From Chrysochromulina parva (taxonomy: Eukaryota; Haptophyta; Prymnesiales; Chrysochromulinaceae), in assembly GCA_002887195.1 (NCBI GenBank), contig PJAB01000022.1, positions 1-61,376 of the forward strand: a stretch of DNA of 61,376 bases, read 5' to 3'. The stretch's first letter is position 1, and the number at the start of each line of letters is the position of its first letter. This document shows positions 828-44,761 of this stretch, one piece after another. A program made the position numbers and the translations under genes. Below the pieces are notes generated by a model. The model ran no database searches. It was not told where the DNA came from and saw only the letters and a list, made by a program, of their open reading frames with translations.

Positions 828-2834
828 TCACCTCGGATCGGGCAAGCGCGAATCGCGGGGCGGCACAAAGGGCGGGGGCATGGTCTGTGCGTGCAACGCC
901 GGGAAGTCAAAGCCCTCAAAAAAGCTCGATTTGAAGATGTTTGGGATGTTGATCCGCTCGCTGGGCCGCTTGTCGAGCATGCGCTCGATGAGCTCCTTGG
1001 TAGCTTGGCCCAACGCGCCTGTCTGGGTGAAGCACGGGTCGCTCATCGCCGGCTGCGACTTGATAATCGCCTGGTAGAGCTCCATCTTGCGCGCCGCACC
1101 CGTGGCGGTGCTGTCCTTGGGCGGCATGAAGGGGAAGCGCCCTGTCGTGATTTGAAAGAGCAGGACTCCAAGCGCCCACACCTCCGCCTTGTGGCCGTCT
1201 GCCGGGACGGGAGTCGGACAGTGGCGGCATGTGAGCACAAGAACTCCGGGGCGCCAAGCTCGAGCCATGGCGGGCGATGCCCGAGGAGATGACGGGTTCG
1301 GCCGTGCCGTCTACGTACAGCCAGTCTTATGGATGATCTCGGGCGCGAGGTACAACGGCGTGCCACATGAGGTGTACGTGTGCTCTGACTCACTCACCCG
1401 CTTGGCGAGACCCACGTCAATCACCTTGCAGTAACCTCTTCTGCTGATCATCACATTCTTGGCGGACAGGTCGCGATGCATCCACGCTGCCGAATGCAAG
1501 GCGTCAAATGCGGAGCACATGCAGGCGAAGTAGAATCGGCATGTATGCAGGCTCATGGCGCCACTATTGCGATGATCGGCCATCAGGTCCTCCAGCGAGC
1601 CACCACCCAGATGCTCGAGCAACATGTAACTCTTCTTTTGGGCATCGACGTACTCACCTGCGATGAGGAGGGCCATGAGAGGGTCATCAGAGGTCATCAG
1701 CGGTCTTTAGCGGCCATTCGCGATCATCAGATGCCATCATCGGCAATCAGCGCTCATCAGCGCTCATCAGCGCTCATCAGCGCTCATCAGCGCTCATCAG
1801 CGCTCATCAGCGCTCATCAGCGCTCATCAGCGCTCATCAGCGCTTATCAGCGCTTATCAGCGCTCACGAGCTCTCATAAGCGCTCATAAGCGATAATGAG
1901 CTCTCATCAGCATCATCAGTGGTCCTCAAATCAGAGTAGTCTCACCATAGAAGCGCATCAGAAAGGGCGACGCTCCTTCGCGCATGCACGCAATCTCGCG
2001 GTCGATAAGCGTGCGCAGAGGTGTACGGCCGTTCATGCCCGCGCTGTCCTGGATCTTGAGCGCGTAAGCCTTCCGCGTCGGCTTGTGAACGATCAGATGC
2101 ACCTCGCCAAACTGCCCCTTGCCCAGGATGGCCACCGAGCTCGACTGCGTGACTGCGGCTTGCACGTCGGCGAACTCGCGAGCGAGCGACTCATAGCCGT
2201 CGTACGACGACTCACTGAGCGACTTGATATCCTTGTGGCGCGTCATGGCCTGCGCCACGACACCTTGGAAGGCTGATGGCCCTTTGGCCTTCCGGTTTTG
2301 CTCGATGACCGACCAGATCGTCATCCGCAGGCGCGTTCCGTACTCCATCTGCATAAGCTTGAAGACCTGCCGGTGGAGCCGATAGAGTTCGGCCGAACCC
2401 TGACCAATCGCAGTGAAGTCTGCACGTCCGCCTGTGTCTAGCGCCTCCTGCCCAAATGTGTCGCCAGGCCCAAGCATCCGCTTGGTGTTCAAGCTCTGGA
2501 CCAGCACGCGGCCCGTGTGCACGACGTAGAGGTAGTCGATGGTGCTGCCTTCACGCACGGCCACCTCACGTGGTAGCAGGCGGCAGTGCTCCATCGCCTC
2601 TGTGAATCGCAGAATCTGGTGCAGGTGCACGCCATAGAGGAATGGCACGCGTGCCAGCGCCTCTCGGAGGAACTCAGTCAACTCCTTGGACTTCGGGTGG
2701 AGCTTGATGGTCTTGGTGGAGGTCTCGTTAAGGTCACCGAGTTCCACAGCAGTTTCTCTAATGGGCCGAAGCAGTGGGTCACGAAAATGGTAAGCCATGC
2801 GCGATGACGGCGCCCCGCGAGCACGGCCCTGCAA
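828..2834 (-). CDS. Cyclic-nucleotide-dependent-type protein kinase (PKG/PKA-like, three exons)
   Basis: Predicted serine/threonine kinase activated by cGMP or cAMP. Minus-strand exons are 2834-1946, 1657-1319 and 1198-828, joining in phase to 532 residues. The N-terminal half holds one cyclic-nucleotide-binding domain (about residues 60-165) with GDTFGQEAL and a later Arg in the phosphate-binding cassette region. The kinase domain follows: GKGQFGEV loop near residue 238, ALKIQ lysine near 260, HRDLSAKN catalytic loop, DVG in place of DFG, TSCGTPLYLAPE activation segment and VWALGVLLFQ. The join across intron 1 restores RFYGEYVDAQKK and across intron 2 HKTGYGHKAEVW, both normal kinase sequence. 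Known PKGs usually carry two or more nucleotide domains; only one is visible. A second ATG at about 2798 is an alternative start. It is divergent from the TTLL gene, sharing about 235 bp. Confidence 0.85.
1199..1318 (-). other. Intron 2 of the cyclic-nucleotide kinase
   Basis: A 120-nt GT-AG intron on the minus strand (donor GTACGT, acceptor CGGCAG). The sequence AGACGGC occurs just inside the donor end and again across the acceptor, so the junctions carry a short direct repeat. Position is set by the kinase motif KTGYGHKAEVW, which is only continuous when these bases are removed. Confidence 0.75.
1658..1945 (-). other. Intron 1 of the cyclic-nucleotide kinase, introner-like
   Basis: A 288-nt GT-AG intron. 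GGTGAG spans the donor junction and is repeated at the acceptor junction, as a target-site duplication would be. On the coding strand it holds CCACTGATGATG near its 5' end and CTGATGACCTCTG near its 3' end; the last 44 nt align with the end of the golgin intron at 27070-27142. Between them lies a 10-bp tandem array. Confidence 0.8.
1751..1860. repeat. 10-bp tandem array inside kinase intron 1
   Basis: Eleven consecutive 10-mers on the plus strand: nine CGCTCATCAG followed by two CGCTTATCAG, with decayed copies on both sides (about 1683-1900). On the transcribed strand the unit is CTGATGAGCG, which contains the CTGATGA core shared among introns, so the array looks like an expansion of that core. 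Copy number is probably variable between strains. Confidence 0.95.
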
Positions 2835-3068
2835 CCTTGCACAAGTGTAAGCGTCGAAAATCCCAAAAGAGCTGCGAAGTTTGCACGATCTCGAAGTCTC
2901 AGATCACCACAGAACTTGGGTATGCAGCTTTTACATGTAGTGCGTTTGGAAGATCTGGGGCGTGGGGGACGTGTGGTGGTCGTGGTGGGGGGCGGCTCAG
3001 GGCGGGGCGGCCGTCGGGCGGGGGGAACTTGGCGTCGGCCCAGTCGCGCAACGTCCCGTTGGAAGAGA

Positions 3069-6000
3069 ATGGATGTTGAGACGGAGGCAGCAAAGGAAGC
3101 CAGGAAAGCACCGCACCAGCTGGTCATCCCAACCGAGGCTCAGCTGCCACAGGCGGCGCGTAGCTTCGGCCCGCTGGTGTATTGGTCAGAGGCACGTCCT
3201 GGCACGCCCAGCGGGCTGCCACGGGTAGCACAGTTGGTCTTCCGCCCGACGCGCTTCACGCTGAACGAGCTGTGGACCGACGTACCGCGGCCGGTATCGG
3301 ATTCGCCATGGCAGCTCTCCTACGCTCTTGCCAGCCGTAGCGAGTGCCGGCTGCTGCAGACAATCTTCGAGGATCACGGCTTTGAGCTGACTACGTCCAA
3401 TACGTTCAACATCCTCTGGCTGAGCTGCCCGGTGAAGCCGGCGCTGCTGCTCGGGCTCAACAAGTACCAAAAGGTCAACCACTTTCCACGCACCCAGGAG
3501 CTCACGCGCAAAGACCTGCTCGCGCGTACGCTCGGCAGCCTGCGCGAGGCCCATGGGCCGTCTGCGTGCGACTTCCTGCCGCAGACCTTTGTGTTGCCCG
3601 CGGACTATGACGCGCTGCACGCGGCGATGGCGCGTGAGCGTGTGGCGTGGATTGTCAAGCCGGTTGCCTCGTCGTGCGGGCGGGGCATTTCCATCGTGCA
3701 ACAGCCGCATCAGCTGCCGCATGAGGACGTCGTCGTCTCACGCTACATCGCCAACCCCTTGCTTATTGACGGCTTCAAGTTCGACTTGCGGATCTACGTG
3801 GCAGTGACCTCGTTCTATCCGCTGCGCTGCTACGTGTATGAGGACGGTCTCGCGCGCTTCTCGACCGAGCGCTACCAGAACAGCGGCAGCGGCGGCTATA
3901 AGAACGTATTCATGCACCTCACCAACTACTCGATCAACAAGCATTCGGCGCACTTCGTCGAGAACACCGATGCCTCTTCCGACGACCATGGCAACAAGTG
4001 GTCGCTGAGCGCGCTGAAGCGGTGTCTTGCGCGCAACGGTGTCGATGTGCCCGCGCTCTTCGCGCGCATCGATGCGCTTATCGTGCGCACGCTCATCGCC
4101 GTCGAGCCTTCAGTGGTCAGCGCCTGCCGCCGCTATTGTGGGCACAAGAACTGCTGCTTCCAACTGTTAGGCTTCGACGTGCTCATCGACGACGCTCTCA
4201 AACCCTGGTTGCTCGAAGTTAACCTGTCGCCCTCGCTCGGCACCGACTCGCCACTGGACCTCAAGGTGAGCCACCCGCGCACCCTCCGCTGCCCGTGCGC
4301 GCGCCCGCCGCCGCCCTCCCTTCCGGCGCCGCCCCCGGCCGCCGCACGCGCACCAGCCGCCGCCCGCGCACCCGCAGCCCCACTCATGCTCGCACCGCCA
4401 AGAGCGTCCGCGGCCTCTCTCCGTGGCCGTGCGGCGTCCAAATGCGGTGCCACAACTGCTCCTGCAGTATCGAGCGCCGGCGCGCCATTCTCTTCGGCGC
4501 CGCGCGCTTTTCGAGGCAGGCCAGAACCCTTTTTTGGCAGACCAGCAAACGCGGCAGCGCGCCAAGAGCGGATTGCGTGCGGATTGCGTGCGCTCTTGAA
4601 TCCCATCGCCTCTTGCCCACCATGGTTTCGCTGTGTGGATGCTCGTTTCGGCGCACGCGCAGGTCAAGGCTGAGATGCTCTGCCAGCTGCTCACGCTCGC
4701 CTCGATCACGCCATATGACCGGGAGGCGCATAAGCATGAGGCGCGCCGTCGTGAGCAGCAGCGGTACGAGCGGCTGGCGCGTGGCGAGCCCGCAGCGAAG
4801 CAGGTGCTGCGCTCGCGCTTGGGCGAGGTGGCCGGCATGGCGATGAGCCTCGATGCGCACCGAGCGGTCGCCGAGATGGACGCGGAAGCTTCCAAGAGCG
4901 GCGCGTTCCGGCGCGTCTATCCAACGGCCAACGGGCACGTGCACCGGCATATCTTCGCGCAAGAGCGCCCCCTCAACACGATGCTCTGTGAAGTGTTGCG
5001 CCAACGCGCGGCCGACGTTGCCAACGCGGCAGAACACGACCTCGACGCAATCTCGGGTGCTCAAGGGGCCGCACGCGCCTCCGAGGGCCTCCCGCCGACT
5101 GCCCCCGCCGACGCCCCCGGCAGCGCGCCGACAACGAAGCTGGCCGACGCAGCGAGTGCGATCTCGGGAGGTGCGATCTCGGAGGTGCAATCTCGGGAGC
5201 TGGCCGACGCAGCGAGCGCGATTGCACAGGCGCCGCCAAAGGCCGCAACCCGTCTGGCAGAGGCACTGGGTGAGGGGCAGCAGCAGCAACAGCAAAAGCA
5301 GCCGCCGCCGCCGCCGCAGCAGCAGCAGCAGCCGCCGCACCCGCAGCCGCAGCCGCAGCCGCAGCCGCAGCCGCAGCCGCAGGCCTTGCAGCAGCCGCAG
5401 GCCTTGCAGCAGCCGCAGGCCCAGCCTGATTTCCAGTCGTCAGTGCCGTCCTGCCCCGCTCGCATCTCTGTGCAGGCGCACGGCGGCTCGTGGGCGGAGG
5501 CTGCGACCCACGCGGAGGGTGTGTGCGCGACGCTGCACGCCTCACGCCCTTCCTCGTCAGGCCTCGCGCCCGGCCACCCTGGCGCGCATGGTCCGGAAGG
5601 TGCGATCTCGGGAGGTGCGATCTCGGGAGGTGCGATCTCGGGAGGTGCGATCTCGGCGGCCTACCGTGCCGATAAGCCACCTGCCGGCTCGCGCGCCACG
5701 CCGTATACAACCACAGGTGACGAGATCGCACCTCGAAACGGAGTGCCACTGATGATCTCCGAGTGTCAATAATCGTCACTGATTGCGGCCCCGTGTGCGA
5801 GCACAGTCGCGTATGGAGCGAGCGTGCCAGCTCCAGAGTCTTGGAGCCCCTCCAAAGAGGCCGGGCGGCCTAAGTCGCCCTTGAATGCCGGGTTCGTCAC
5901 TGGGTACGGCTCGCCGACTGCTTCCTTTGAGGCCACTGCTGGGATAGCGGCAGCAGGCGCCGATGCCGCTGCGGCACGGCGCAGCGGCGTGTTCACTGAT

Positions 6001-7305
6001 CCGCAGGTGCAGTGAGTGCCACCGAGTGCCACCGAGTGCCACCGAGTGCCACCGAGTGCTACCGAGTGCCACTGAGTGCTACCGAGTGCCTCGCAGGTGC
6101 AGCTCGTTGTGATCGAGTATCTGCGGCGCATCCGACGCACACGTCGCCCAGGCGACACGAGTGCCCTCGTCGAGCCGAGTGACGTTGCCATACGCCAGCG
6201 GCTGCATGCGATCGACAAGGCGCTGCGCTCGGCACAGAAGGCGCGGATCACAACAGCTGAGGCGGAGCTGCGCCCGTGCCACGCGCCCAAAGGGGCGTCT
6301 GCAGCGGGCAAGGGCGGCGCCGGCGAGGCGGCCTCAGCGGCAGACGCTCAGGACGACGTCAACGAGGAGGCGGGCGGGGTGGGCGAGGGTGCTGAGGACG
6401 AGCTCGTCCGAGCTCAGCCTTCCTCGCCGTTGACGAAACTGGGGCGCCTCTTGGCCGGGACTGGCCCGGCGCCGGGCACCAGCGCGCCCGCCACGGCGCC
6501 CCACACGGCGAGCGCGCCACCGGGCTTTGCCGCCGCGACGCTTTCGTCTGCTTCCACAGGCGAGCAGTCGCGTGCAGCGATCGCTGAGCGGCTGCTTCGT
6601 CACCTGGGGGCCGCGCGCTCGCAGCAGGAGAGCCGCCCGGGACCTCACTCCCGCGTCTCGCCTCGCGTGGGCAGTCGACGCGCCGTTAGCCTGAGCCCCT
6701 CGACGCCCTCGACCTTCTCGTCAGCCGTGTACTCCGCGAGTGACGCACAGCTGCTCTACGCGATGCAGCACTTTGCTGCCATGCGCGCGCCGCTTGTCGG
6801 CGAGGGCGAGGGCGAGGGCGAGGGCAGCAGTGAGGGAGCTGAGAGTGTCGCCGACTCCAGCGGCAGCAGCGGCGGAGCTGGTGGTGACGTGGCCGTTGCA
6901 CGGGGCGCCATAGCGGGCGCCAACACGTCCCTTCTCATGCTCACCATCAAGAGCGCCATAGCGGGCGATTTCGCCGAGGACGGCCGCACGCCGCCCATGC
7001 CGCCGAACGTGCAGCCCACCCGCTGGCTCAAGGATCATCTCGGAGCCTCTGCTTCCCAATCGGAACCACCTGCCGGCGTCATGTCGAGCAACGCGAGCTT
7101 CACCTTGCAGCTGCTCAGTGGCGCTCAGCGCACGCAGTCGGCCCCAAAGACACGGGACGGGCTAGCTGACGGGCTAGCGCCGGCGCACAGCGCGACGACG
7201 GCCGCTGCTGAGCGGCTGATGGGCGGTAAGCTGGCTAAGCCCGAGAGTGCGCGTCGCCTCGCTCGTGTCCGCAAAGAAGGAGTGCAACTACTGTACGCAA
7301 GGTAG
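3069..7305 (+). CDS. TTLL-family tubulin polyglutamylase (four exons)
   Basis: Tubulin-tyrosine-ligase-like enzyme that would add glutamates to tubulin tails, typically in axonemes. Exons 3069-4265, 4663-5716, 5807-6006 and 6097-7305 join in phase to about 1219 residues. Exon 1 carries the ATP-grasp core: NHFPRTQELTRKDLL, WIVKPVASSCGRGISI, NPLLIDGFKFDLRIYV, FMHLTNYSINK, and LLGFDVLIDDALKPWLLEVN with SPSLGTDSPLDLK. Exon 2 begins with VKAEMLCQLL, the helix that normally follows SPLD in TTLL4/5-type enzymes, then turns into Gln/Pro repeats. Exon 4 has VVIEYLRRIRR and a long disordered tail ending QLLYAR. I chose the ATG at 3069 because the upstream in-frame part is low-complexity Gly/Arg. The end of exon 2 is uncertain: 5599 is an equally phased donor. 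Confidence 0.88.
4266..4662 (+). other. Intron 1 of TTLL gene
   Basis: A 397-nt GC-rich intron, donor AAG|GTGAGC and acceptor CGCAG|GTCAAG. It reads open in the upstream frame as low-complexity Pro/Ala, but splicing joins SPLDLK to VKAEML, the expected TTLL order. GTCAAG at the acceptor echoes CTCAAGGT at the donor, a weak junction repeat. Confidence 0.85.
5138..5216 (+). repeat. 19-bp direct repeats flanking a 15-bp-unit insertion in TTLL exon 2
   Basis: AGCTGGCCGACGCAGCGAG occurs at 5138-5156 and again at 5198-5216. The 41 bases between hold two to three degenerate copies of the 15-mer AGGTGCGATCTCGGG. Total added length is 60 bp, so the frame is kept and the protein reads LADAASAI twice. 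This is what an insertion with target duplication, or a tandem duplication, would leave. Confidence 0.85.
5598..5657 (+). repeat. Four 15-bp repeats (GGAIS-coding or intronic)
   Basis: Four tandem AGGTGCGATCTCGGG units (the last ends GGC), starting at 5598, 5613, 5628 and 5643. If translated they give GGAIS repeats. Each unit also has an AG|GT with phase 1, matching the acceptor at 5806, so any could act as a splice donor. A 14-nt inverted copy, CGAGATCGCACCTC, lies at 5721-5734, so the transcript could fold back on itself. Confidence 0.9.
5717..5806 (+). other. Intron 2 of TTLL gene, introner-like
   Basis: A 90-nt intron containing CCACTGATGAT at 5746-5756, the core shared with introns of three other genes. 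CACAG is present at both exon-intron junctions. Stops in all useful frames (TAA at 5771) require its removal; splicing joins ACA G to TC GCG in phase. The true donor may lie upstream at 5600, making it 207 nt. Confidence 0.7.
6007..6096 (+). other. Intron 3 of TTLL gene: 90 nt, 11-nt direct repeats, 10-bp array
   Basis: CGCAGGTGCAG is present at 6002-6012 and at 6092-6102, exactly spanning the donor and acceptor, so each copy supplies an AG|GT junction. The interior (6011-6090) is eight 10-mers of the ACCGAGTGCC type, one reading ACTGAGTGCT. An in-frame stop (TGA at 6013) means it must be spliced; removal joins DPQ to VQLVVIEYL. Confidence 0.85.
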
Positions 7306-9251: not shown

Positions 9252-9356
9252 GAGTTTGCAGTTTGAGTTTCGTTACAAAATCATGCAAAATTTCGCGAGC
9301 TTTCGCAAATTCTCATGTCAAGCTTCCATCCCCGCCGCGTGCCCGCCGCGCCCATT

Positions 9357-10409
9357 CTAATGGTATGGATTGCGAGGCAAAATGCAGTGGTAGTTCAAGG
9401 GCAGCTTTATTCCCAGGGCGGGCGCCGAGTGCGAGATGACCAGGCTCCTCCCCGCGCGCTGCTTCTCCGGCTCCAACACGGCGCGCCGGGTGCGCTCGCC
9501 CATCGGCGAGTCGATCCCTTCTCTCTTGCCGCCCGTCCACTCGCCGTCGAATACATTGCCGTTGGCATACGTCATCTTACCGCGCCCGTGCTGCATGCCG
9601 CACGCCCACTCGCCCTCGTAGACATTGCCGACGTAGACATTGCCGTCGTACACAGCTGCGCCACTCGAATACGTCATCTTGCCACGCCCTTCCTGCTTGC
9701 CGCCTTTCCACTCGCCGTTGAAGACATTGCCGCTAGCAAACGTCATCTTGCCGCGCCCCTCCTGCTCGCCGTTTTTCCACTCACCGTCATAGACATCGCC
9801 GTTAGCATACGTCATCTTGCCGCGCCCGTTGCGCGCGCCACCTTTCCACTCGCCGCTGTACACGTCACCGTTCGCATACGTCGTCTTTCCGCGCCCCTCC
9901 ATGCTGCCGCTTTTCCACTCGCCCTCGTGCACAGCGCCGTTCGCATACGTGTACTTTCCGCGCCCTTCTTGCTTGCCACCTTTCCAGTTACCCTCGAAGA
10001 CATCGCCGTCAGGAAACGTGTACTTGCCGCGCCCTTCTTGCTCGCCGTCCTTCCACTCGCCGTCAAAGGAGGCGCCGCGAGATAACGTCATCTTGCCGCG
10101 CCCGTGGCGCTTATTTTCCCTCCACTCGCCCTCGTAGACATGCCCGTTCGCCAGCGTGTACATGCCGCGCCCTTCCTGCTTGCCGCCCTTCCACTCGCCG
10201 TTGTAAAGATCGCCATTAGCAAACGTCATCTTGCCGCGCCCCTCCTGCTCGCCGTCTTTCCAATCACCGTCATACACATTGCCGCTCGCATACGTCATAC
10301 GGCCACGCCCTTGCTGCTTCTTGCCCTGCCAGTCCCCATCGAAGACAGCACCAAAGAAGGCGAGATTGCACGACCGTGGTGTGAGAGAAGGACGCTCAGC
10401 GTTCGTCAT
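9357..10409 (-). CDS. MORN-repeat protein (12 repeats)
   Basis: 350 residues, almost entirely MORN repeats of about 23 residues of the form YDGEWKNGEQEGRGKMTFAN. I count 12 complete repeats from residue 23 to about 300, plus one shortened copy (YDGNVYVGNV) between repeats 10 and 11. MORN arrays bind membranes or act as rigid scaffolds in flagella, basal bodies and junctions, or serve as regulatory segments of lipid kinases; no catalytic domain is attached here. The C-terminal 50 residues are unrelated and not recognised. The start lies only 42 bp from the plus-strand gene at 10452. Confidence 0.88.
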   Translation of the reverse strand: MTNAERPSLTPRSCNLAFFGAVFDGDWQGKKQQGRGRMTYASGNVYDGDWKDGEQEGRGKMTFANGDLYNGEWKGGKQEGRGMYTLANGHVYEGEWRENKRHGRGKMTLSRGASFDGEWKDGEQEGRGKYTFPDGDVFEGNWKGGKQEGRGKYTYANGAVHEGEWKSGSMEGRGKTTYANGDVYSGEWKGGARNGRGKMTYANGDVYDGEWKNGEQEGRGKMTFASGNVFNGEWKGGKQEGRGKMTYSSGAAVYDGNVYVGNVYEGEWACGMQHGRGKMTYANGNVFDGEWTGGKREGIDSPMGERTRRAVLEPEKQRAGRSLVISHSAPALGIKLPLNYHCILPRNPYH

Positions 10410-10451
10410 CTCTCGACTGCCTTCCTCGCGTCGCCTTCAGCGATCTTGGGA

Positions 10452-20411: not shown

Positions 20412-22642
20412 ATCTGCATATCGCACCTGCCTTCGGGCCTTGACGTCGACATCATCGATTACATCGTCAACATGATGGAAGGCGAAGAGGAAGAGACGGA
20501 GAAGCGAGAGGCGCTCGAGGGCTTCCTGCTCTCGTGTGGAGTCGTCGAGAGCGAGGATGAAGCGACGGTGCAGTGCCGCAAGCTGCTCGACGCGCTCGCG
20601 CCACTCGCGGCCCAGGCCGTCGACCTTTCTGATTCGGGCCTAAAAGTGCTCAGCAAGGCAACGACGATGGCGGCGCTCGACGGCGGCGAGGACGCCTTCA
20701 GGGAGGCGGGCACGGAGCTGGGCGGTCGGCTCGTGTCGATGGACGAGGCGCTCGATTCGCGCAAGAAACGCAAGGCAGCCGAGGAGGCCGAGCGGCGTGC
20801 GTGCAAGGCGACGTACCTGCGCATCGCCGTGCAGCGGCAAGAAGAGGAGGCGGCGCTGCAGGCGGCGATGGCGCGCGCGGTGACGCTGCGCCGGAAGATC
20901 GGCGCGTTCACGGGCCAAATCGAGGCAAAGCCGTTCCCGCTGCCTAACCCGGGCGGCGGGACACCCCTGCTCGAGAATGCGTCCTTCACGCTCGTGCGCG
21001 GCCGCGTCTACGGCCTGATCGGACGCAACGGCAAGGGGAAATCGACGCTGCTGCGCGCCCTTGCGAGCCGTACGGTGGGCAACATTCCTCCCGAGGTGAC
21101 CGTGCACTACGTGTCGCAGGAGGTGCAGCTCGACGAGGCGATGCTGCTGTGGACGCCCGTGCAGTTCGTGGTTCACGCCGACATCGAACGTCGCATGCTG
21201 CTTGAGGAGCAGGCACGTTGATTGCCACTGATGACCTGCCTTGCATGCAAGTGCTCACCACAGCGCGTTCGGCTCTCGAGGAGCAGGCCGCACTTGGCGG
21301 GAGGGACGCGGCGGACGATGCCGAGGCGCGCCGTCTCGTCGAGTTGCAGCAGATGCTTGAGAACATTGAGGCGGAGACAGCCCAGGAGCGCGCGACGACG
21401 CTGCTCATCAACCTCGGGTTCTCGGCCGAGCTGCGCGCCCGGCCGATGAACGCACTTTCGGGCGGATGGCGTGTGCGCACCGCGCTCGCCGCCGCCATCT
21501 TCGCCAAGCCGGACCTGCTGTTGCTCGACGAGCCGACGAACCACCTGTCGATCGGAGCGGTGCTCTGGCTCGCGCGTGAGCTCGCGACGAACGAGACGTG
21601 GAAGCAGCGCATCGTCGCCGTCGTCTCGCACGACCGTTGCTTCCTCGACGAGATCACCACCGACACGCTGCACATCTCGGGCGCTGCGCGCCAGCTCACG
21701 CAGAGCAAGGGCAACTACACGACGTGGACGCAGCGGCGCGAGCAGCAGCAGCTCACGCACGGGCGCGCGAAGGCGTCCAAGGAGCGCGAGATCAAGGATC
21801 TGCGCGACTTCAACCCCGGCATGATCGGCAGCACGCCCAAGGCAATGAAGCTGTACAAGATGAAGCAGAAGCAGGCGGAGAAGCTCGAAGAAGAGCTCAA
21901 GAACCTCGAGATCGAGGCTGCCGCGCTCCAGGAGGACGCCGAGATCCCTCTCTCGCTCAAGGCGGGAGGCGAGCTCAGCGGCTTCGTAGTGCAGATCAAG
22001 AATGTAGGGTTCCGGTACACGACCGACCTGCCCTTCCTCTTCCGAGGTGCCGAGATGGGCATCGACTCCAAATCGCGCATCGTGTTGCTCGGCGAGAACG
22101 GCAACGGCAAGACGACGCTGGTCAGGCTGATGCTCGGAGACCTCGAGGCCACCGAGGGGACCATCACACACGCGAGTGGCGTCCGCATCGCCCTCGTCAA
22201 CCAGCATCACGCCGACCAGATCGACCTGACGCTTTCGCCGCTGCGCTTCATGCTCGACAAGTTTCCGGGCGACGGCAGTTACGAACACGAGCAGGCGATC
22301 CGTTCACACTTGAGTGGGTGCGGCGTCACCTCGCAGCTGATGACATTGCCCGCCTCTGCGCTCTCGGGTGGGCAGCGCTCGCGCGTCTCGCTCGCTGCCG
22401 TCTCGTACACGAAGCCGCACGTGCTCGTGCTCGACGAGCCCACCAACAACCTCGACCTCGAGTCGGTCGTCGCACTCGCCGACTGCATCGAGCGCTTCGA
22501 GGGTGGCGTCGTGCTCGTCAGCCACGACCAGTACTTCGTCGGCCGCGTGGCCAAGGAGGTGTGGGTGGTCGATGGAGGGGCGGTCAGCAAGGCTGAGTCC
22601 TTTGACAAATATCGCGCACAAGCGCTCGCCAAATTGAAGTGA
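20385..22642 (+). CDS. ABCF-type ATPase (ABCF3/GCN20-like)
   Basis: Soluble ABC-F protein with no membrane segments; relatives act on ribosomes (GCN20 with GCN1 in the GCN2 stress pathway). Exons 20385-21216 and 21252-22642 give about 740 residues. The N-terminal 180 residues include an acidic segment (MEGEEEETEKREAL) as in ABCF3. ATPase 1: Walker A GRNGKGKST, signature LSGGWRVRTALA, Walker B LLLLDEPTNHL. ATPase 2: Walker A GENGNGKTT, signature LSGGQRSRVSLA, Walker B VLVLDEPTNNLDLE and SHDQYF. The linker between them is charged and helical. The intron is very short (35 nt, or 47 nt if the CCACAG at 21258-21263 is used). The start codon lies in a 16-bp duplication. Confidence 0.9.
21217..21251 (+). 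other. Ultra-short intron of the ABCF gene with shared core
   Basis: The reading frame shifts here and TGA at 21219 closes the first frame. A GT...AG span of 35 nt (acceptor GCATGCAAG) or 47 nt (acceptor CACCACAG at 21263) restores the frame in phase 1. The interior has CCACTGATGACCT at 21225-21237, identical over 13 nt to the golgin intron. Confidence 0.75.
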
Positions 22643-26286: not shown

Positions 26287-29200
26287 ATGTCGTCGTGGCT
26301 ATCGGCATTAGGCGACGTGACGACGCTAGGCGACTTTTCGCTTGAAAAATCGCTCCAAGAAGCCAAGGATGCCATGGCCCGGGCGGCTCGCGAAGGAGAG
26401 GCCACCATGGCCGCAGCGCGTGAGGCTGCTGAGGAGTCTGCGAAGGCCCTCTCCATTGCGGCGCAACATCAAGCCGACCTGCTCAAGGCCCAAGCGAGCA
26501 CGCTTGAATCAAGCCTGCTCTTCCCTGGAGACGAGATGGAGCTACCGGATCCGCGCAAGAAGACGAGTCAGACACCGCGCGCAATGGCGACTCCGCGGAT
26601 AGAGACTGAGCTGAGCTCAGAGGCTAACAACTGGAGCGATTTGTCAACGCCCTCGAACCGTGGAATGCCGCGAGATGCCGGCATGACGTCGCGAGATGCC
26701 GGCATGACGACGGTAGCTCGCAGCGGAAAACCACAGCGCTCGATGGCTGACCTGCGTGCTGCGGAGAAACGGTGCGAGGTACTCGAGGACGAGTGCTTGA
26801 AGCTCCGCACTGCAGTGCTCAGCTGCCTTCCGGCGCAACCTGGGCTCGAGAGCCTGACGTCGGACGCGTTGGCGGTCCAGCTGCGTGCGCTGCACGCGGC
26901 GGCACCACCGCACGCCGTCGTCGCCGCTGCTCTCGTTCCCGATCTGGAGATCGACTTTCTGCATGCGCAGGTGGCGCAGCTCCGGTCGCAGGTGGCGCAG
27001 CTCGAGGCGCAGCTCCGGCACGCCGAAGAGCGCGTGCAGCAGCCAGCCGCATCCGCGGGCGTGGAGAGGGTGCGCGTGCGCTCGATACGGCGCGTGTACC
27101 ACTGATGACCTCTGTTGACCTCTCGATTGCCTCCATCATCAGGTGCGCGCGCTCGAAACGGCGCTCGAAGCGGCCGAGGCTCGTGCCGTGACGGCTGAGG
27201 CAGATAAGGCGGCGGCAGCGGCTAAGGCGGCGGAGCAGGAGGCGGAGGTCAAGAAGAAGGCGATCGCCAAGATCAAGACGCTGCAAGCGCAGGTGGATGA
27301 GCTCGGCTCCAAAGGAGCTGCCACCCTCACAGAGGCCCAGCAGAAGGTTGAGGAACGAAGGGAGCGTGCCGTCGCGACGGCGCAGGCGGAGGCGCGTGCG
27401 GCCGCGGAGCATGCAGCTGACCTCGAGGCGCAGCTCGCGGCGGCACACGCTGCCGCGGCGGACAAGGCCATGGAATACACAGGGATAGTACAGCGGCTCG
27501 AGGCGGCCGCTTCGGCCGCTGCCGACGAGCATGAGGCAGCGATCCTGCAGGCGCGAGAGCAAGCTGCACGGGAGGCTAAGGCAGCCGCCGACGCGGCGAC
27601 AGCGGCAGCGGCCGCGGAGGCGGCAGCAGCGGCGGAGGCCACGGCGTCAGCGGCGTCCGAGGCGGCGGCGGAGGCGGCTGCAGAGCTGCAAGCGGCGCAG
27701 GCGGCGATGGCCGAGGCCGAGCAAGCCGCCGTTGCGAGCGCCGCTCTCGCAGCGGCGAGCGCGTCCGAAGCCGCGGCGGCCAAGGCCGAGAAGGAGGCGG
27801 CCAAGGCCGAGATGGAGGCGGCCAAGGCCGAGAAGGAGGCGGCCAAGGTTGAGATGGAGGCGGCCAAGGCCGAGATGGAGGCGGCCAAGGTTGAGATGGA
27901 GGCGGCCAAGGCCGAGATGGAGGCGGCCAACCATCGGGCTGCAGCCGCGGCAGAACAGGCGGCGGCGGCCGATCAGACGTCGCAGCAGCAGCAGCAGCAG
28001 CAGCAGCATATCGAAGACGCGCGTGCCGCCGTTGCCGAGCTCACCGCTCGTGCCGAGACGGCCGAGGCGCGCGCCGACGCAGCGGAGCAGCAAGCGGTTG
28101 CTGCCAAGCAAGAGGCCGAATCAGCGCAGCAGGAAGCGCGCGTGGCTAAAGATGCGGAGGCGGCAGCACGGCAGGAGGTGGCGGCGGCGCAGGAAGCGGC
28201 GGCGGCGGCCGTTGCGGCGCGGGCAGTTGCGAGGAGCGAGGCCGAGGCTGCGAAGCAGGCGGAGGCTCTGGCGACGGCGGCGGCAGCGGAAGCGTTGTCT
28301 GCCTGTCAGACAGCTCAGGAAGAGGCTCTCGTGGCAGCAGAACTTGCGAGCTCTAGCGCGGGCGCGGCAGCTGCGGCCGCGGCCGAACGGGAGGGGCAGC
28401 TTAGAGACGAGCTCAGCGCAGCCCTGGCCGAGGTCGAGGCAGCGCGTGCTAAGGGCACAGCGGCGGTCGCGGCGGAGCAAGCGGCTGCCGAGAGGGCGGC
28501 GGCCGCGGTCGAGGAGACTGAGAGGCTTCGATTCGCACTCAGCTCGACAAGCGAGCGGCAGGTGAGTGTGCTCGAGGAGGCGCGCACGGGGCTCCAGGCA
28601 CGAGTCGTCGAGCTCGAGGCCTTGTTGTCCGAGCAAGCCAGCCTCCGCCAGAGCGCGAGCCGCGCGGCCGAGGCGGCGGAGGCGAAGGCCGAGGCGGCCG
28701 AGGCGGCGCAGGCGCAGCTCGAGCGCGAGGCAGTCAAGGCGGCCGAGGCGGCCACCAAAGCGCAGGCGGCCCTCGAAGAGGAGGTCGAGGCGGCACAGCG
28801 CAAGGCAGAGGCGGCGCAGGCGAAAGCAGAGGAGGCGGAGACGAGGGCCGAGGCGGCGGAAGCGAAGGCGGAGGCGGCGGAGGCGAAGGCCGAGGCGGCG
28901 GAGGCGAAGGCCGAGGCGGCGGAGGCGAAGGCCGAGGCGGCGGAGGCGAAGGCGGAGGCGGCGGAGGCGAAGGCGGAGGCGGCGGAGGAGAAGGCCGAGG
29001 CGGCGGAAGCGAAGGCCGAGGCGGCGGAGGCGAAGGCGGAGGCGGCGGAGGCGAAGGCGGAGGCGGCGGAGGCGAAGGCCGAGGCGGCGGAGGCGAAGGC
29101 GGAGGCGGCGGAGGCGAAGGCCGAGGCGGCGGAGGCGAAGGCGAACGCAGTGGTGGGTGGCCAGGAACAGGAGGCCGAGCAGATAAAGAAAGTCAAGGCG

Positions 29201-34257: not shown

Positions 34258-36066
34258 ATGGCGGACGCGACGCCACCACCGACGACTCCCTTCTCAGTGC
34301 GCCGCGCGCTGCTCTCCGTATCCGACAAGGCGGGGCTCATCGAGCTCGCAACTGCGCTCGCGAAGCACGGCGTCGAGATGCTGTCCACTGGCGGCACCGC
34401 CAAGGCCATCCGCGAGGCAGGGCTGCCAGTCAAGGACGTGTCCGAGTTCACAAACTCGCCCGAGATCATGGACGGCCGCGTCAAGACCCTGCATCCGCGC
34501 GTGCACGGCGGCATCCTCATGCGCGAGCTTCCCGGCTTTGAAGACGATAAGCAGCTCGAGCAGATCGGCGGCGCGCCCATCGACCTTGTCGTGGTCAACC
34601 TGTACCCGTTCAGCGCGACCGTGGCCAAGGGCGCACCGTACGACGAATGCGTGGAGAACATCGACATCGGCGGGCCCACGATGGTGCGCGCCGCGGCCAA
34701 GAACCACGCGCGTGTGAGCGTTGTGGTGCAGCCAGCCGACTATGCTGCCATCATCGCGTCGCTGCCGGCGGGGCCGACGCTTGAGGAGCGCAAGCGGCTG
34801 GCGGCCCGCGCCTTCTCGCACACGGCCACATACGATGAGGGTGTTGCCACCTGGTTCCAGGGCCAAACGGGCACCGGCCGCAACGGCGTCACCACCCTCA
34901 AGTACGGCTGCAACCCGCAACAGAAGCCTGCAAGTGTGCGCGGCCTTCTCTCGCCCTCGGGCCCGCAGCCGATGCCCTTTGATGTGCTCTCGGGCGTGCC
35001 CGGCTGGATCAATCTGCTTGATGCGCTCAACGCGTGGCAGCTCGTGCGCGAGCTTGCGGTGGCTACCGGACTGCCCGCCGCGGCCTCGTTTAAGCACGTC
35101 TCGCCGGCGGGCGCCGCCGTGTACGCGCCCGTTAGTGAGGAGATGCTCGCCGTGTACGAGGCGACCGGCAAGGACCTCTCGCCCACTGCCATTGCGTACC
35201 TGCGCTCGCGCCAGGCGGATCCTCTCTGCTCCTTTGGCGACTTTGTCGCCATCTCGGGTGTTGTCGACCTGTCGACTGCGCAGCTGCTCAAGATCGAGGT
35301 CTCGGATGGCATCATCGCCGGCGGCTTCGAGCCAGCCGCTCTCGAGATCCTGCGCGCCAAGAAGAATGGCGCATACATTGTGCTGCAGGCCGACCCGGCC
35401 TTCGAGCCGCCGCTCTTCGAGGAGCGCACCGTCTTTGGTGTCAAGATGGTGCAGCGGCGCGCGGCCGAGGCGGTGAGCGACGCGACGCTGACCAATGTGG
35501 TGACGAGCCTCAAGGAGCTGCCCGCCGAGGCGAAGCGCGACCTCCTCGTCGCCCAGATCGCCATCAAATACACGCAGTCTAATTCGGTCGGGTACGCGAA
35601 GGACGGTCAGATGGTGGGCGTTGGTGCGGGCCAGCAGAGCCGCGTCGACTGCGTCAAGCTTGCAGGTCGTAAGGTGGAGACGTGGTATCTGCGCCAACAC
35701 CCCAAGGTGCGTGCCCTCAAGTTCAAGGAAGGCGTCAAGCGGCAGGAGCGCATCAACGCGCGCGTGCGCTACATCGAGGGCGACATGCCCCCAACCGAGT
35801 ATGCGATGTGGAAGGCGCAGTTCGACGAGGAGCCCGAGCCTCTCACGCTCTCCGAAAAGGCCGAGTTCATGCAGACGCTCACCGGAGTCTCGCTCGCCTC
35901 GGACGCCTTCTTCCCCTTCCGTGACTCGATCGACGTGGCCTCCACTCGTGGCGTCTCCTACGTCGTCGCTGCAGGCGGCTCCGTGGCCGACGAAGAGGTG
36001 ATCGCCGCCGCCAACGAGTACAAGATGGCGATGGCCTTCTCTGGCCTTCGCCTCTTCCACCACTAA
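34258..36066 (+). CDS. ATIC: Bifunctional AICAR transformylase/IMP cyclohydrolase
   Basis: Carries out the last two steps of de novo purine synthesis, AICAR to FAICAR to IMP. 602 residues, one exon. The IMP cyclohydrolase domain (about 10-200) begins [17 protein letters not shown] and has [31 protein letters not shown] and [18 protein letters not shown]. The transformylase domain follows, with [12 protein letters not shown], the catalytic Lys-His in [15 protein letters not shown], and [20 protein letters not shown]. The end GLRLFHH is typical. The domain order and length match the animal/fungal type of bifunctional enzyme. The ATG at 34258 is the first that fits the family; longer in-frame extension is not protein-like. 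Confidence 0.96.
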
Positions 36067-41071: not shown

Positions 41072-42202
41072 TTATTCTGCGTATTTCTCTACTTGATCAG
41101 AGCCGACCGAGCCGCAGTCCAAAGTCGAGTTGCAATTCAGTGATACGGGTGGCGCAGCCGCGGCCGACACGCAAAAGAGCTCAGCCTCGTCGAGCGGCCC
41201 GAGGCCAAGCTCCTGGCGAAGAGACGCGGCCTCGTCGAGCTTGCCCTGGGCTAGCAACATCATGCCCAGACTGTTGATGTAGGCTTGAGTGGCAGGATCG
41301 CGCTCGCCGAGCGTTGCACGCGCCCCTTGGAGCGCCTCCCAGAACAACGGCGCTGCTGCGTCGAACTGGCCTTGGTCCTGCAACAGCATGCCCAAAGTGT
41401 TCATAGTGTGGAGAGTATCAGAGTGCCGATTTCCGAGTGTCGCGCGGCGCGCCTCAAGCACCTCCCGAAACAGTAGCGTCGCCTCCTCAACCTGACCCTG
41501 GGCCTGAACAAGCGAGCCAAGGTTGTTAATGCACGTGAGCGTGTCAAGGTGGCGATCGCCGAGAGCCGCACGGCTCGCCTCGAGCGCTTCGCGAAGCAGC
41601 GGCGCCGCCTCGTCCAGCTTATTCTGTTCCTTCAACACGAGCCCCAGATCATTGAGGGCAGTGAGTGTCTGGACGTGCCGATCGCCAATCGTAACACGGC
41701 GTGCTTCGAGCACATGCCGGAGCACTAACGCCCCCTCGTCAAACCTTCCCTGGGCGTGCAACAGCATGCCTAAATTGTTCATGGTTGTAAGTGTGTTCGC
41801 ATGCAGATCACCGAGGGTCGCACGACTCGCCTCGAGCGCCTCCTGGAACAGCGGAGCCGCCTGGTCGAGCTTGCCCTGAGCCTTCAACAGCAGAGCCAAA
41901 TTGTTGATGGACATCAAAGTGTCAGGATGTCGATCGCCAAGCGTCGCGCGGCGCACATCGAGCGCCTCCCTGACTAACAGCTCCGCCTCGTCGAGCTTGC
42001 CTTGCGACTTCAACAGCATGCCCAGATTATTCATTGAGGCGATAGTTCGACTGTGCTGAACGCCGAGTTGTGTGCGCCTTACCTCGAGCAAGTCCCGGAA
42101 CAGCGGCGCCGCCTCTTCAAATTTGCCATGGGCGTACATCTGCTTCGCCTTGTCCTCGATCTCTTTCGACTCCTCGTCAATCTTCGAGCCGGCGCAACCC
42201 AT
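41072..42202 (-). CDS. Kinesin-light-chain-type TPR protein, predicted N-myristoylated
   Basis: 376 residues. It begins MGCAGSKID: Gly2 and Ser6 fit N-myristoylation and Cys3 palmitoylation, so membrane attachment is likely. Then come about eight 42-residue TPR units (DRHPDTLMSINNLALLLKAQ, GKLDQAAPLFQEALEASRAT) of the kinesin-light-chain/NB-ARC-associated type, giving a 126-bp DNA periodicity. The last 40 residues are not repeat. No kinesin or NB-ARC partner domain is attached; function unknown, probably a scaffold. These repeats turn over rapidly in protist genomes. Confidence 0.8.
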   Translation of the reverse strand: MGCAGSKIDEESKEIEDKAKQMYAHGKFEEAAPLFRDLLEVRRTQLGVQHSRTIASMNNLGMLLKSQGKLDEAELLVREALDVRRATLGDRHPDTLMSINNLALLLKAQGKLDQAAPLFQEALEASRATLGDLHANTLTTMNNLGMLLHAQGRFDEGALVLRHVLEARRVTIGDRHVQTLTALNDLGLVLKEQNKLDEAAPLLREALEASRAALGDRHLDTLTCINNLGSLVQAQGQVEEATLLFREVLEARRATLGNRHSDTLHTMNTLGMLLQDQGQFDAAAPLFWEALQGARATLGERDPATQAYINSLGMMLLAQGKLDEAASLRQELGLGPLDEAELFCVSAAAAPPVSLNCNSTLDCGSVGSDQVEKYAE

Positions 42203-42604
42203 GTTGCAAACCCATGTCTCCTTTTCGTGTGTGGATGAAACTTATTACCGGAGTATTTTTACCGTACCGGTAAAAAGACACCGGGGGAGCCGGAACACAC
42301 CCGGGACACACGGGGACACACAGATCACACGGATCACACACACAAAAACACAAACCTCAGAACCATCCCAACGTCCCCCCAACGCTCGCACACCGCGCGA
42401 ACGAATCCGCGGAGGCCGACTCAGCCACAACCCCGGACAGCCGATACCGGACAAGTTAAACACCGGGAGAAGCGGGACACTTTCGGGGTTGCACGAAAAA
42501 ACAACCACTTCCTTTCTTCCTATTCACGAGAAACTCCTCGCCTTTCAAAGTGTCGCGAGCGCGTGTGCGTGCTCACTCTCCAGCATCGCGTCGATTGTTC
42601 ACTC
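42203..42604. other. Divergent intergenic with hairpin and ACAC-rich tract
   Basis: A 9-bp-stem hairpin TTTTTACCG-TAC-CGGTAAAAA lies at 42256-42276, followed by an ACACAC/GGGACACACGG-rich strand at about 42290-42350. Both lie in the expected promoter region of the TPR gene (-) and the TLC gene (+). Confidence 0.6.
42256..42276. repeat. 9-bp inverted repeat, 3-nt loop
   Basis: TTTTTACCG and CGGTAAAAA are exact complements around TAC. It sits about 55 bp upstream of the TPR start codon on the minus strand, so it may be in that gene's 5' leader or promoter. Confidence 0.8.
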
Positions 42605-43492
42605 ATGGTGACCTTTCAATTTAGATGGCCTTTGCAATTCGTGGCCTTTGACACGATGATCGAGAACGTTCCACACAACAACCATTATCTCTCGCCGCTG
42701 CATTCCCTACAGCGGCTATACGCGTGTGGAATGGCAGCAGTTCTATTTTTTGTCGCGTGCACCATCACTTACCATGTGGCATCGCGATTCGTTTCGGACT
42801 GGACCGCCGAGAAACGTGTATCCTTCTGCTCAAATGCTGTGGGGACACTGAACTCGATCGTGTCCACACCGCTCTCTCTTTTTGCCCTCTACGACATCCT
42901 ATCTCCAATGGTTCCGACAATAGATTGCAGGACTGCGAGTGCAGGCGAGGTCAACTTGGCGATGGTGACTTCAAGTCTCACCATTGTCATGACAACAGGC
43001 GCGGTGTGCGGCTTCTTTGTCTTCGACATGTCACTGCTGGCTGTATCGAAGACGTACCGCGACGTGCTCGGTGGTTCATTGACCGTGCTCCTATTAGTGC
43101 ACCACATCATCTCCTTGGTCGTGTGGCCGTACTGCGTCCTTGTCGATCGGAGTGTCTTTTTTGTGGTCCAGCTACTCACAACGGAACTCTCGAACATCGG
43201 CCAGAACATCTACAACATCTACAACGCCTTGCCCATCCAGCATACCCTTAGCTTGCCCATTGGAATTACGTGGATCGTCCTATTCGCCGCGTGCCGCATA
43301 GTCGTCATGCCGTGGGTGGCATACGTATACTATGAGCTCCTCGTACTGCCGGGCTGCGGATACACGCCCCTCGAGCGCATCGTCGGCCTCATCACTGTGC
43401 CCATCCCGTCGATGATGAATGTTTGGTGGTTCTATCTGCTCATAGCTGGCGCCATTAAGCAGGTCGGTGGTGGCGACGTGAACCAAAAGTAA
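42605..43492 (+). CDS. TLC-domain membrane protein (TRAM/LAG1/CLN8 family)
   Basis: 295 residues from the ATG at 42605, with six or more membrane helices. The TLC pattern is visible: VSFCSNAVGTLNSIVSTPLS after the first helix, FDMSLLAVSKTYRD, then VLLLVHHIISLVVWPY with the His-His pair, TTELSNIGQNIYNIYNAL, and FAACRIVVMPWVAYVYYE. That order is typical of TMEM56/TLCD-type proteins, which handle lipids or sense ceramide; true ceramide synthases have extra His/Asp motifs not seen here. Substrate unknown. ATG 42656 is an alternative start. Confidence 0.72.
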   Translation: MVTFQFRWPLQFVAFDTMIENVPHNNHYLSPLHSLQRLYACGMAAVLFFVACTITYHVASRFVSDWTAEKRVSFCSNAVGTLNSIVSTPLSLFALYDILSPMVPTIDCRTASAGEVNLAMVTSSLTIVMTTGAVCGFFVFDMSLLAVSKTYRDVLGGSLTVLLLVHHIISLVVWPYCVLVDRSVFFVVQLLTTELSNIGQNIYNIYNALPIQHTLSLPIGITWIVLFAACRIVVMPWVAYVYYELLVLPGCGYTPLERIVGLITVPIPSMMNVWWFYLLIAGAIKQVGGGDVNQK

Positions 43493-43856
43493 CTTTTCGA
43501 AGTAACTTTTGGCAAAAGGAGAATGGCGAAGAGCAAAGCAGCCGAGGGTGATGGCGACGACACCGAACGAAAAGGATCTAATGTGGCGTCAGCTATCCTA
43601 TTGTGGGTGCAATGCCACCGAAGATTCAACCTCAGCGCACGCATGACCGTGCTCCTGCACATCCGCGGCGCCCGCCCCCATGTAGACGTAGCCCAGTGCG
43701 CTGACGGGATGTTTGTAATTATGTGTTCAATTTCACATGTCAAGGTCAAGGCTGGACGTGTGCGAACCTGCAACCACAGAAAGAAACAGGCGTCGTGTTG
43801 TGACTGAATTCGCGCCCAAAGAGTCTTATGAACTTATCTCCGGAGCGGTGATCAAC
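43493..43856. other. Intergenic between TLC and 6PGL genes
   Basis: About 360 bp. AAGTAACTTTT is duplicated across the TLC stop (about 43488-43510). A 94-codon open frame at 43523-43807 has no family resemblance and I treat it as chance or leader sequence. Confidence 0.45.
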
Positions 43857-44761
43857 ATGCTGGCTATCCTTTCCCTCGTGTCGGCACTCGTGCTGCCGTC
43901 GCGCATGGGCGTTCCGCGCATGGCATTGGTGGACGATTTCTCGATCTCCAAGGACATTAAGACCGTGCAGGTTTGTCATCTTCCAGACCCGCACCCTCTG
44001 ATGCATCCGCATAACTTGTAGTCTGCCGTTCTCGCGTGTAGGTCTTCGATGGCGACTACGCAAAGGAGATTTGTGACGAAGTCGCGGCCGTCGGCGCGGC
44101 GTGCATTGCCGAGAAGGACAGCTTCTCGCTCGCGATTCCGGGGGGCTCGGTTGTGACAGCTATCGCGGGTCTGTCTCCAGATGCGCTCGACTACTCTAAA
44201 GTGCACCTCTTCTTGTGCAACGAGAAGATCCCATCTTTCCCGTGCTACAGCGGCGCGCTCGAGGTGGCCAAGAAGCTCGGCATCCCCGAGAAGCAGGTGT
44301 ACGGTGTCGATACGAAGGGCACGCCCGCTGAGCTCGCGGCATCGTACAGCAAAGTGCTCGCAAGCAACCCCAGCATCGACAACTCTGGCCCGATCCCGTC
44401 TGTCGACATGATGCTTCTTGGCACTGGCCCCGATGGCCACGTCGGATGCCTCTTCCCCGACTCGCCCGAAATCAAGGCGAGCGGCACGGGCAAGGTTGTC
44501 GTCGCTGGCAATGACGCGCGGGCGAACGGCGATTTCCTCGCTGTCACGATGGACGTCATGTGCGCGGCCAAGGTGGTCCTCGTCTCGGCCGCGGGCGCCG
44601 GCCGCGCGGACATGGTGGCCAAGGCACTTTCGGGCGACTTCGGCCGCTTCGATTGCCCTGCGGGCATGGTCGAGGGCATCGAGCAAACACTCTGGTTCAC
44701 AACGCAAGACGCCCTCGAGAAGTTCGACGCCATGGCCGAGGACGAGGAGATGGAGGAATGA
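43857..44761 (+). CDS. 6-phosphogluconolactonase-like protein, probably organelle-targeted
   Basis: Exons 43857-43970 and 44042-44761 give 277 residues. The family hydrolyses 6-phosphogluconolactone in the oxidative pentose phosphate pathway. Exon 1 is a hydrophobic leader (MLAILSLVSALVLPSRMGVP) like a signal or plastid-leader peptide. The mature part has SFSLAIPGGSVVTAIAGL, KVHLFLCNEK and VDMMLLGTGPDGHVGCLFP, the last being the hallmark loop. The usual DER after strand 4 is NEK here, and the first Ser-Gly-Gly-Ser is Pro-Gly-Gly-Ser, so activity may be altered. Glucosamine-6-phosphate isomerase is a related alternative but lacks support. Organelle targeting is inference. Confidence 0.8.
43971..44041 (+). 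other. Intron of the 6PGL gene
   Basis: A 71-nt intron, donor CAG|GTTTGT, acceptor TGTAG|GTCTTC, phase 0, joining TVQ to VFDGDY. The junctions resemble each other (GTGCAGGTTT versus GTGTAGGTCT). CCCTCTGATGCATCC inside is a distant echo of the shared intron core. Confidence 0.85.

Follow-up and report, generated by a model that had tools for sequence, protein, structure and literature searches.

The way in which genomes acquire introns has long been in question. Transposon-like introners that leave short duplications are so far the best-supported mechanism of intron gain in bulk: a DNA-transposon model for those of Micromonas and Aureococcus is said to have been put forward by Huff et al. in 2016, Micromonas introners take one of their splice sites from the target, and a family is also described from Chrysochromulina sp. 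TARA_PON_109_MAG_00232, which we take to be a haptophyte. A survey recording 548 introner families in 175 genomes treats duplications of 3-9 bp as the signature of DNA transposons, and the example intron that it gives for the Chrysochromulina family, family 5, is about 70 nt long and has no terminal inverted repeats (Gozashti et al., 2022, PMC9860276). Here we analyze a 61,376-bp stretch of DNA (the window: contig 22, PJAB01000022.1, of the 45,074,565-bp, 2,199-contig assembly GCA_002887195.1 of the haptophyte Chrysochromulina parva), in which a preliminary description had noticed the same short core string in introns of four unrelated genes (a kinase, a TTLL, an ABCF and a golgin-like gene) and had taken these introns for introners. 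Comparison of these sequences with the whole assembly indicates that the four introns very probably belong to a genome-wide introner-like family made by insertion, and the best explanation of the whole, to which we give a probability of about three in four, combines such a family with copying during break repair.

The four core strings lie where they had been reported: CCACTGATGATG at 1922-1911 on the minus strand in kinase intron 1, CCACTGATGAT at 5746-5756 in TTLL intron 2, and the ABCF and golgin copies at 21225-21237 and 27099-27111. The kinase and golgin introns are likewise similar over about 43 nt on their 3' sides (CTGATGACCTCTG...TCATCGCAG and ...TCATCAG). That such sharing is not due to chance was also right, as it goes far beyond expectation: CTGATGA has 27 occurrences in the window where 6.0 would be expected (4.5-fold; 0 of 100 shuffles reached 27), with 14 of these copies in the kinase array region 1684-1919, and the assembly holds 314 exact copies of CCACTGATGACCT (170 + 144) and none of the same pattern read backwards, which served as the control for all pattern counts. 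Matches to CCACTGATGACCT are spaced 20, 40 or 70 bp apart in several places, which pointed to a 10-bp repeat. The strings are real, but no single long element is common to all four introns: the kinase core borders a tandem array of 10-bp period, and the TTLL intron that follows is such an array as well. Nor is the core confined to the four introns in which it was noticed: many introns of unrelated genes share sequence, with 314, 126 and 2,054 genome copies of the three patterns searched and no copy of any control. What the preliminary description had not seen is that this shared family has two architectures, that the core is the unit of a decamer array, and that the duplications are longer than those of reported introners.

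Based on the context of the matches in 20 loci and the window, and then in 30 further loci, we distinguish a type A and a type B element. Type A elements share one constant unit, roughly 50-60 nt in length, GTACG-TTGATTGCCACTGATGACCTGCCTTGCATGCAAG-YGCTCACCACAGCGC, followed by a short variable tail; its 34-nt core is non-repetitive and has 126 genome copies (65 + 61, with up to 3 mismatches; control 0). In type B, decamers of the form CTGATGRCCN make up an array that terminates in CTCATCAG; the 22-mer at its 3' end, CTGATTGCCTCCCTCATCAG, often stands before GT and has 2,054 copies (1,063 + 991, with up to 2 mismatches; control 0), and three decamers in a row occur at 825 + 562 places when overlapping placements are counted (control 0). 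Among the 166 decamer units of the elements first called, CTGATGACCT (44) and CTGATGGCCT (27) are the commonest, and 104 successive units follow one another at exactly 10 nt; a spacing of 20 nt comes second, with 8 cases. Every decamer contains CTGAY or CTGAG, and CTGAY fits the branch-site consensus. Type A commonly reaches the 5' boundary of the intron and type B the 3' boundary, the opposite end being a copy of the target, and it is the 3' end of type A and the 5' end of type B that vary. Splice sites, mostly GT/GC-AG, are divided correspondingly: in type A the donor GTACGT commonly comes from the element and the CAG from the copied end of the exon, and in type B the donor commonly comes from the first exon copy and TCATCAG from the element; elsewhere AG/GT lies inside the copy (a slash marks the splice junction, except in GT/GC, where it stands for alternatives). 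Two loci are built in a more complex way: at L024 (about 2330-2700, minus strand) each 70-bp unit consists of about 27 bp of target exon plus decamers, and at L054 (about 1289-1370, minus strand) one type A element is apparently nested in another (GCATGCAAGTG-AGGAG-GTACGTTG).

The elements occupy genes, and almost always in the sense orientation. We assembled 71 non-redundant sites (47 type B, 24 type A; the two TTLL introns are outside this set), most of them from loci chosen for the core or the type A pattern and not for their context. Flanks are sense-coding on both sides at 55 sites and on one side at 15, antisense at one and non-coding at none, so that 70/71 sites are sense to coding sequence on at least one side, compared with an unbiased sample of the genome that is 25.5% intergenic (33,475/131,376 bases); within this sample, the comparison of introns with other DNA that had been proposed as a check favors introners. 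Host genes include those for ABCF, MSH6, EPSP synthase, FAH, U-box, GT8 and PX proteins. Unbiased DNA yielded 17 predicted introns of 40-400 nt, five of which carry decamer units, or 7/19 when the kinase and ABCF introns, missed by the gene model, are added. The predicted introns that lack units, 12 from unbiased and 7 from targeted loci (19 in all), each have at most two CTGAY motifs. The single antisense case, a type B element at L011:2526-2607, is an in-frame coding insertion of 57 bp whose exon copy, 25 bp long, is perfect; it argues for insertion at the DNA level. In an array of CTGATGACCT, every sense frame is interrupted by stop codons and every antisense frame is free of them, so other antisense insertions may hide as protein repeats (RSSEVIRGHQ).

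Insertion sites are frequently flanked by a copy of the exon. Comparing the 60 nt upstream with the 120 nt downstream of each site by ungapped score, with 710 mismatched pairs as the control, we found a score of at least 13 at 30/71 sites versus 9/710 mismatched pairs, of at least 16 at 22/71 versus 3/710, and of at least 20 at 12/71 versus 0/710. The 30 copies measure 13-40 bp (median 21.5 bp) and 14 of them are perfect; examples are L022 8240 (32 bp with 1 mismatch), L048 (40/40) and L056 (28/28). AG/GT lies inside the duplicated segment at L013 1297, L022 3545, L024 and L026. Copies at the exact boundaries (score of at least 9) accompany 15/39 predicted introns with units in targeted loci and 1/5 in unbiased loci, against 0/7 and 0/12, respectively, of those without units, shifted controls giving about 0.5%. 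This bears on a report that direct repeats of 4-30 bp stand near all 213 introns examined (PMC11782384), a concern that the copy-less introns without units answer for the present genome. Junction repeats, which had been claimed for the window, are present at the golgin intron (20 nt with 2 mismatches, score 14, dropping to 6 at the exact boundary owing to a 2-nt gap in the copy) and, as perfect 11-nt copies at the boundaries, at the ABCF intron and TTLL intron 3, but not at kinase intron 1 or TTLL intron 2.

Removal of the element together with one exon copy is predicted from the sequence to leave the mRNA unchanged and the proteins continuous. There are 39 sites with a copy score of at least 11, 37 of them with 90 nt of flank on both sides and 33 with an open frame on both sides (the antisense L011 included). 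Such removal keeps the frame at 26/33 sites (binomial p 1.1e-7 against one third) and at 29/37 overall, with 13/14 for type A, 13/19 for type B, and 18/22 for sites where the removed length is not a multiple of 3; a GT/GC...AG pair stands at matching positions of the copies at 30/37 sites. An incomplete first set of 59 sites had given close values (sense, 58/59; copies, 27/59 versus 9/590; frame, 21/26). Eight of ten spliced products (from 36 sites), picked as looking conserved, were scanned with Pfam, and in seven a domain spans the junction (ABC_tran, MutS_I, EPSP_synthase, FAA_hydrolase, U-box, Glyco_transf_8 and PX); no Pfam domain lies over the junction of the remaining product, a leucine-rich-repeat protein. 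The MSH6 product aligns gap-free to the MSH6 chain of 2o8b through GYK/VGVVEQ, and the fumarylacetoacetase product aligns to solved structures through GAQ/DPTPLPYL, with a 2-residue insertion just upstream. For the ABCF intron of the window, which has a GC donor (CAG/GCACGT), the ABC_tran domain spans the junction and a 98%-identical protein (P0121) runs straight over it as EEQ/AAL; the nearest named relatives of the ABCF protein include Prymnesium and Emiliania. In the golgin-like gene the frame is intact over 2,123 codons once the intron is removed.

Using the joined exon flanks of 21 sites as queries against the genome, we obtained a clear contiguous match over the junction for two. The C116 leucine-rich-repeat gene has intron-less paralogs on C102, C59 and C1138 (88, 83 and 80% identity) and the C112 gene has one on C601 (91%); in the DNA of all four paralogs, the reading frame is unbroken exactly at the splice point. 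As all three paralogs found for the C116 gene are without its intron, insertion is the simplest reading. The splice sites of that intron are themselves doubtful: the paralog sequence is recovered with a GC donor, but the gene model chooses an internal GT-AG pair. A further match, to MSH6 on C1834 (84%), extends 11 nt beyond the junction, and a match on C1774 was discarded as meaningless because it spans two joined pieces.

Genome-wide copies, sites sense in genes, exon copies and intron-less paralogs together largely bear out the introner interpretation of the preliminary description. As to how the copies are made, we tentatively suggest, with somewhat less than even confidence, that break repair or template switching fits better than a cut-and-paste transposon. 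New copies would arise by copy-and-paste: when a staggered break or a stalled fork in an exon is repaired, an existing introner intron would act as the template. The nascent strand would copy part of the donor intron and then rejoin the target upstream of the break, so that the target would be written twice, and sometimes several times. The element itself carries branch-site-like CTGAY units together with, commonly, a single splice site, and the exon copy supplies the partner site. On this model, the orientation in the sense direction and the confinement to genes would stem from selection favoring insertions that can be spliced, or from a preference for transcribed DNA. Several features are consistent with such copying. 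The length of the duplication is widely variable, and element and target are reiterated in tandem, in four to five 70-bp units at L024 and three at L049. In non-random samples, 33 of the best 100 of the 126 type A matches fall into 16 clusters (42-123 bp spacing) and 26 of the best 100 of the 2,054 type B matches into 11 clusters (41-97 bp spacing). Two sites at L056 lie 430 bp apart, and the second insertion bears the tail GCGTCATCACACAG of the second exon copy of the first, diagnostic base included; similarly, L065 bears the target-derived tail of L012, although the two are on different contigs. At L048, the switch from element to target falls within an 8-nt match, GCTCACCA.

A non-autonomous cut-and-paste DNA transposon (an introner of the miniature inverted-repeat transposable element, or MITE, type) mobilized by a transposase encoded at another locus, the model put forward for Micromonas and Aureococcus, we consider unlikely. 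In its favor, 78.5% of the introner families outside ascomycetes that could be assessed have target-site duplications, terminal inverted repeats or both (PMC9860276), and some type B copies here run CTGATGA...TCATCAG, a 7-bp inverted repeat (L022 8240). Yet the duplications range over 13-40 bp among the 30 scoring sites instead of the 3-9 bp reported for such elements, type A has no terminal inverted repeat by inspection, the type A 3' and type B 5' ends vary, and exon-derived tails have moved along with the copies. We would also not expect target-primed reverse transcription, in which a LINE-like (long interspersed nuclear element) reverse transcriptase copies intron RNA into a nicked exon, to prove correct, despite several points in its favor. 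Insertions of LINEs and of SINEs (short interspersed nuclear elements) resemble the variable 13-40 bp duplications with one fixed and one ragged end found here, the junction match at L048 would suit them, and a search of the genome for RVT_1 gave five matches, four in uninterrupted frames of 1,345-2,709 aa (C1434, C324, C103 and C34). These reverse-transcriptase matches are few against thousands of copies, however, no A-tail was present in the copies inspected, and type A keeps its 5' end while type B keeps its 3' end, a combination that one primed RNA end would hardly yield.

It is very unlikely that type B introns grew in place, with nothing moved, by AGGT tandem duplication and minisatellite expansion. 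AG/GT does lie within the duplicated segment at several sites, AGGT tandem duplication is a widely cited route (PMC4974935), and decamer arrays could expand by slippage; against this, it is one set of decamers and one 22-nt 3' end that recur 2,054 times, and for type A a local origin is already contradicted by the 126 copies of a 34-nt core. A route through RNA, in which an excised intron is reverse-spliced into a second mRNA and then reverse transcribed and recombined, we hold to be very improbable: it would account for 70/71 sites being sense on at least one side and none non-coding, the gene bias expected of an RNA-propagated (fungal-type) element, and for copied tails that end at or near the 3' splice site, but it would not duplicate the target exon, as has happened at 30/71 sites, nor does it agree with the antisense L011 insertion and its perfect 25-bp copy. 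Hardly credible, finally, is that these are ordinary old introns converged on a branch-site consensus, the core being a splicing signal only, since the fit of CTGAY to that consensus and the lack of an exon copy at the kinase and TTLL-2 introns are outweighed by 34-nt identity, flank copies, empty paralog sites and the at most two CTGAY in the 19 unit-free introns; the earlier argument that branch-site function alone is insufficient holds, convergence being already refuted for the recent copies. CTGA and TGATGA look like boxes D and C of C/D-box small nucleolar RNAs, an origin we rejected as the window has no Rfam match at gathering thresholds. The predicted RNA folds of two introns are not unusual (z = 0.49 for ABCF and -1.24 for golgin). 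A viral vector was likewise rejected after exact-pattern scans of IMG/VR returned 0 contigs; the same kind of scan of prokaryote genomes also returned 0.

Returning to copying by break repair within an introner family, a number of observations weigh against it or against its evidence. At 41/71 sites no duplication reaches a score of 13, a threshold that hides duplications shorter than 13 bp; these sites may be older or may lack copies for another reason. At their boundaries, kinase intron 1 scores only 6 at the exact position and TTLL intron 2 only 5 (tested one base off), that is, neither has an exon copy. The frame is not restored at 7/33 sites (6/19 type B and 1/14 type A), and 7/37 copy-bearing sites have no matching GT/GC...AG pair. 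All gene models come from a simple hidden Markov model (HMM) self-trained on the DNA examined. Junction microhomology is absent at L053 and clear in only one or two cases overall, and homology-guided targeting is unsupported: the similarity of flank and tail at 22 independent type A sites gave permutation p values of 0.14 (Pearson) and 0.11 (Spearman), these sites representing 31 type A copies less three without a standard tail (L048, L053 and one L054 copy), the remaining 28 having been collapsed to 22. Tandem reiteration could also be later slippage between direct copies. The search for RVT_1 assigned no enzyme to the copying. A bolder version, in our estimate rather doubtful, is that introns multiply without a dedicated transposase, any decamer-bearing intron serving as a template in the repair of exon breaks by strand switching. 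If this were true, repair that rewrites 13-40 bp of exon would create a matching splice site and the 10-bp units would furnish ready branch sites, so that many products would be spliceable at once; it would also be a third route of introner spread, beside DNA transposition and reverse splicing.

Table 1. Introns of the window and the type A core, with their positions in the 61,376-bp stretch.
Feature	Position	Strand	Description
Kinase intron 1	1658..1945	minus	288 nt; GTGAGA...ATCGCAG; type B decamer-array intron
Putative TTLL intron 2	5717..5806	plus	carries CCACTGATGAT; this extent if spliced at CAG/GTGACG; boundaries uncertain
TTLL intron 3	6007..6096	plus	decamer array GAGTGCCACC x7.7, flanked on each side by CGCAGGTGCAG; CAG/GTGCAG at both ends
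ABCF intron	21213..21286	plus	74 nt; GC-AG; type A element plus one exon-end copy GAGGAGCAG
Type A 34-nt core, exact	21218..21251	plus	TTGATTGCCACTGATGACCTGCCTTGCATGCAAG
Golgin-like gene intron	27076..27142	plus	type B element preceded by a degenerate copy of the exon downstream (GTGCGCGTGCGCTCGATACGGCG / GTGCGCGCGCTCGAAACGGCG); HMM intron
Ordinary contrast intron	43971..44041	plus	no decamer unit; no flank duplication at a score of at least 9

Individual introns of the window differ in how firmly they can be drawn (Table 1). The kinase array has a period of 10 and 23.7 copies; the HMM leaves this intron unassigned, between exons at 1319-1697 and 1926-2798. For TTLL intron 2 the core is confirmed, but the intron itself is plausible yet unproven, since its 90-nt length is a multiple of 3; the HMM places 5746-5756 in an exon and an intron at 5765-5806. 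TTLL intron 3, with an array at 6014-6090 of period 10, is also 90 nt, a multiple of 3, and the HMM puts an intron at 6012-6086. The contrast intron belongs to a gene that is presumably 6-phosphogluconolactonase-like. Elsewhere in the window, a minus-strand gene at 9357-10409 is made of a 69-bp (23-codon) tandem repeat in 9.4 copies and resembles, we assume, a MORN-repeat protein; the golgin-like gene has long 21-bp coding tandem repeats at 27775-27930 and 28782-29142, encoding an alanine/glutamate-rich coiled coil; a bifunctional purine-synthesis protein (34261-36063) matches database proteins at up to 99% and has its closest named relative in Chrysotila carterae (79%); and the contig end (61076-61192) is a tandem repeat of an 11-bp unit, GTATCCTGCAT, unlike the decamers.

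Haptophyte introners are absent from the matter examined in PMC7789003, PMC4815162 and PMC9481584, and a published account may exist in subscription journals; in the literature on Emiliania minisatellites and haptophyte tandem repeats that was partly covered, nothing was found on haptophyte introns. Compared by description and not by sequence, type A may be the same as family 5 or related to it: family 5 too carries its 5' splice site and co-opts the 3' site of the target, but its duplications are 4 bp long, against 13-40 bp here (PMC9860276). Type B would probably have fallen to the removal, in the same survey, of families with short repetitive motifs (PMC9860276), and the C. parva genome suggests that filtering out families of low complexity may have hidden an abundant class of intron makers from that survey. 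The D-IE introners of Micromonas, like the present elements, form thousands of near-identical introns that are rarely intergenic (25/3,171 complete D-IE1) and often have GC donors (PMC4815162); the introners of Micromonas and Aureococcus have direct repeats of constant length and terminal inverted repeats (PMC7789003), whereas here duplications are long and variable and units stand in tandem. Amoebophrya introners share with ours a spread like that of transposable elements and direct repeats at the boundaries, but their direct repeats measure 3-5 nt, their inverted repeats 8-20 nt, and their splice sites are non-canonical (PMC7789003), in contrast to mostly GT/GC-AG sites and a type A without inverted repeats. 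New introns of Daphnia pulex resemble the present ones in exon direct repeats at the opposite end of the intron, in their interpretation as repair of staggered breaks and in further rounds within an intron, and differ in repeats of 4-12 bp (PMC4202315), against 13-40 bp and one repeated insert family here. In intron gain by AGGT tandem duplication a duplicated exon segment gives donor and acceptor, as here (PMC4974935; PMC3443670), but in C. parva a family-wide element between the copies supplies branch-site-like units. The genome holds a recent wave of intron gain in which the footprints of many insertions (exon copies, tandem rounds, donor tails and intron-less paralogs) can still be read, and these make copying by break repair or template switching directly testable against transposition. 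Introners, including one haptophyte family, were already known; what the C. parva elements add are long variable target copies, decamer arrays, frequent tandem reiteration and donor-derived tails that travel with the copies.

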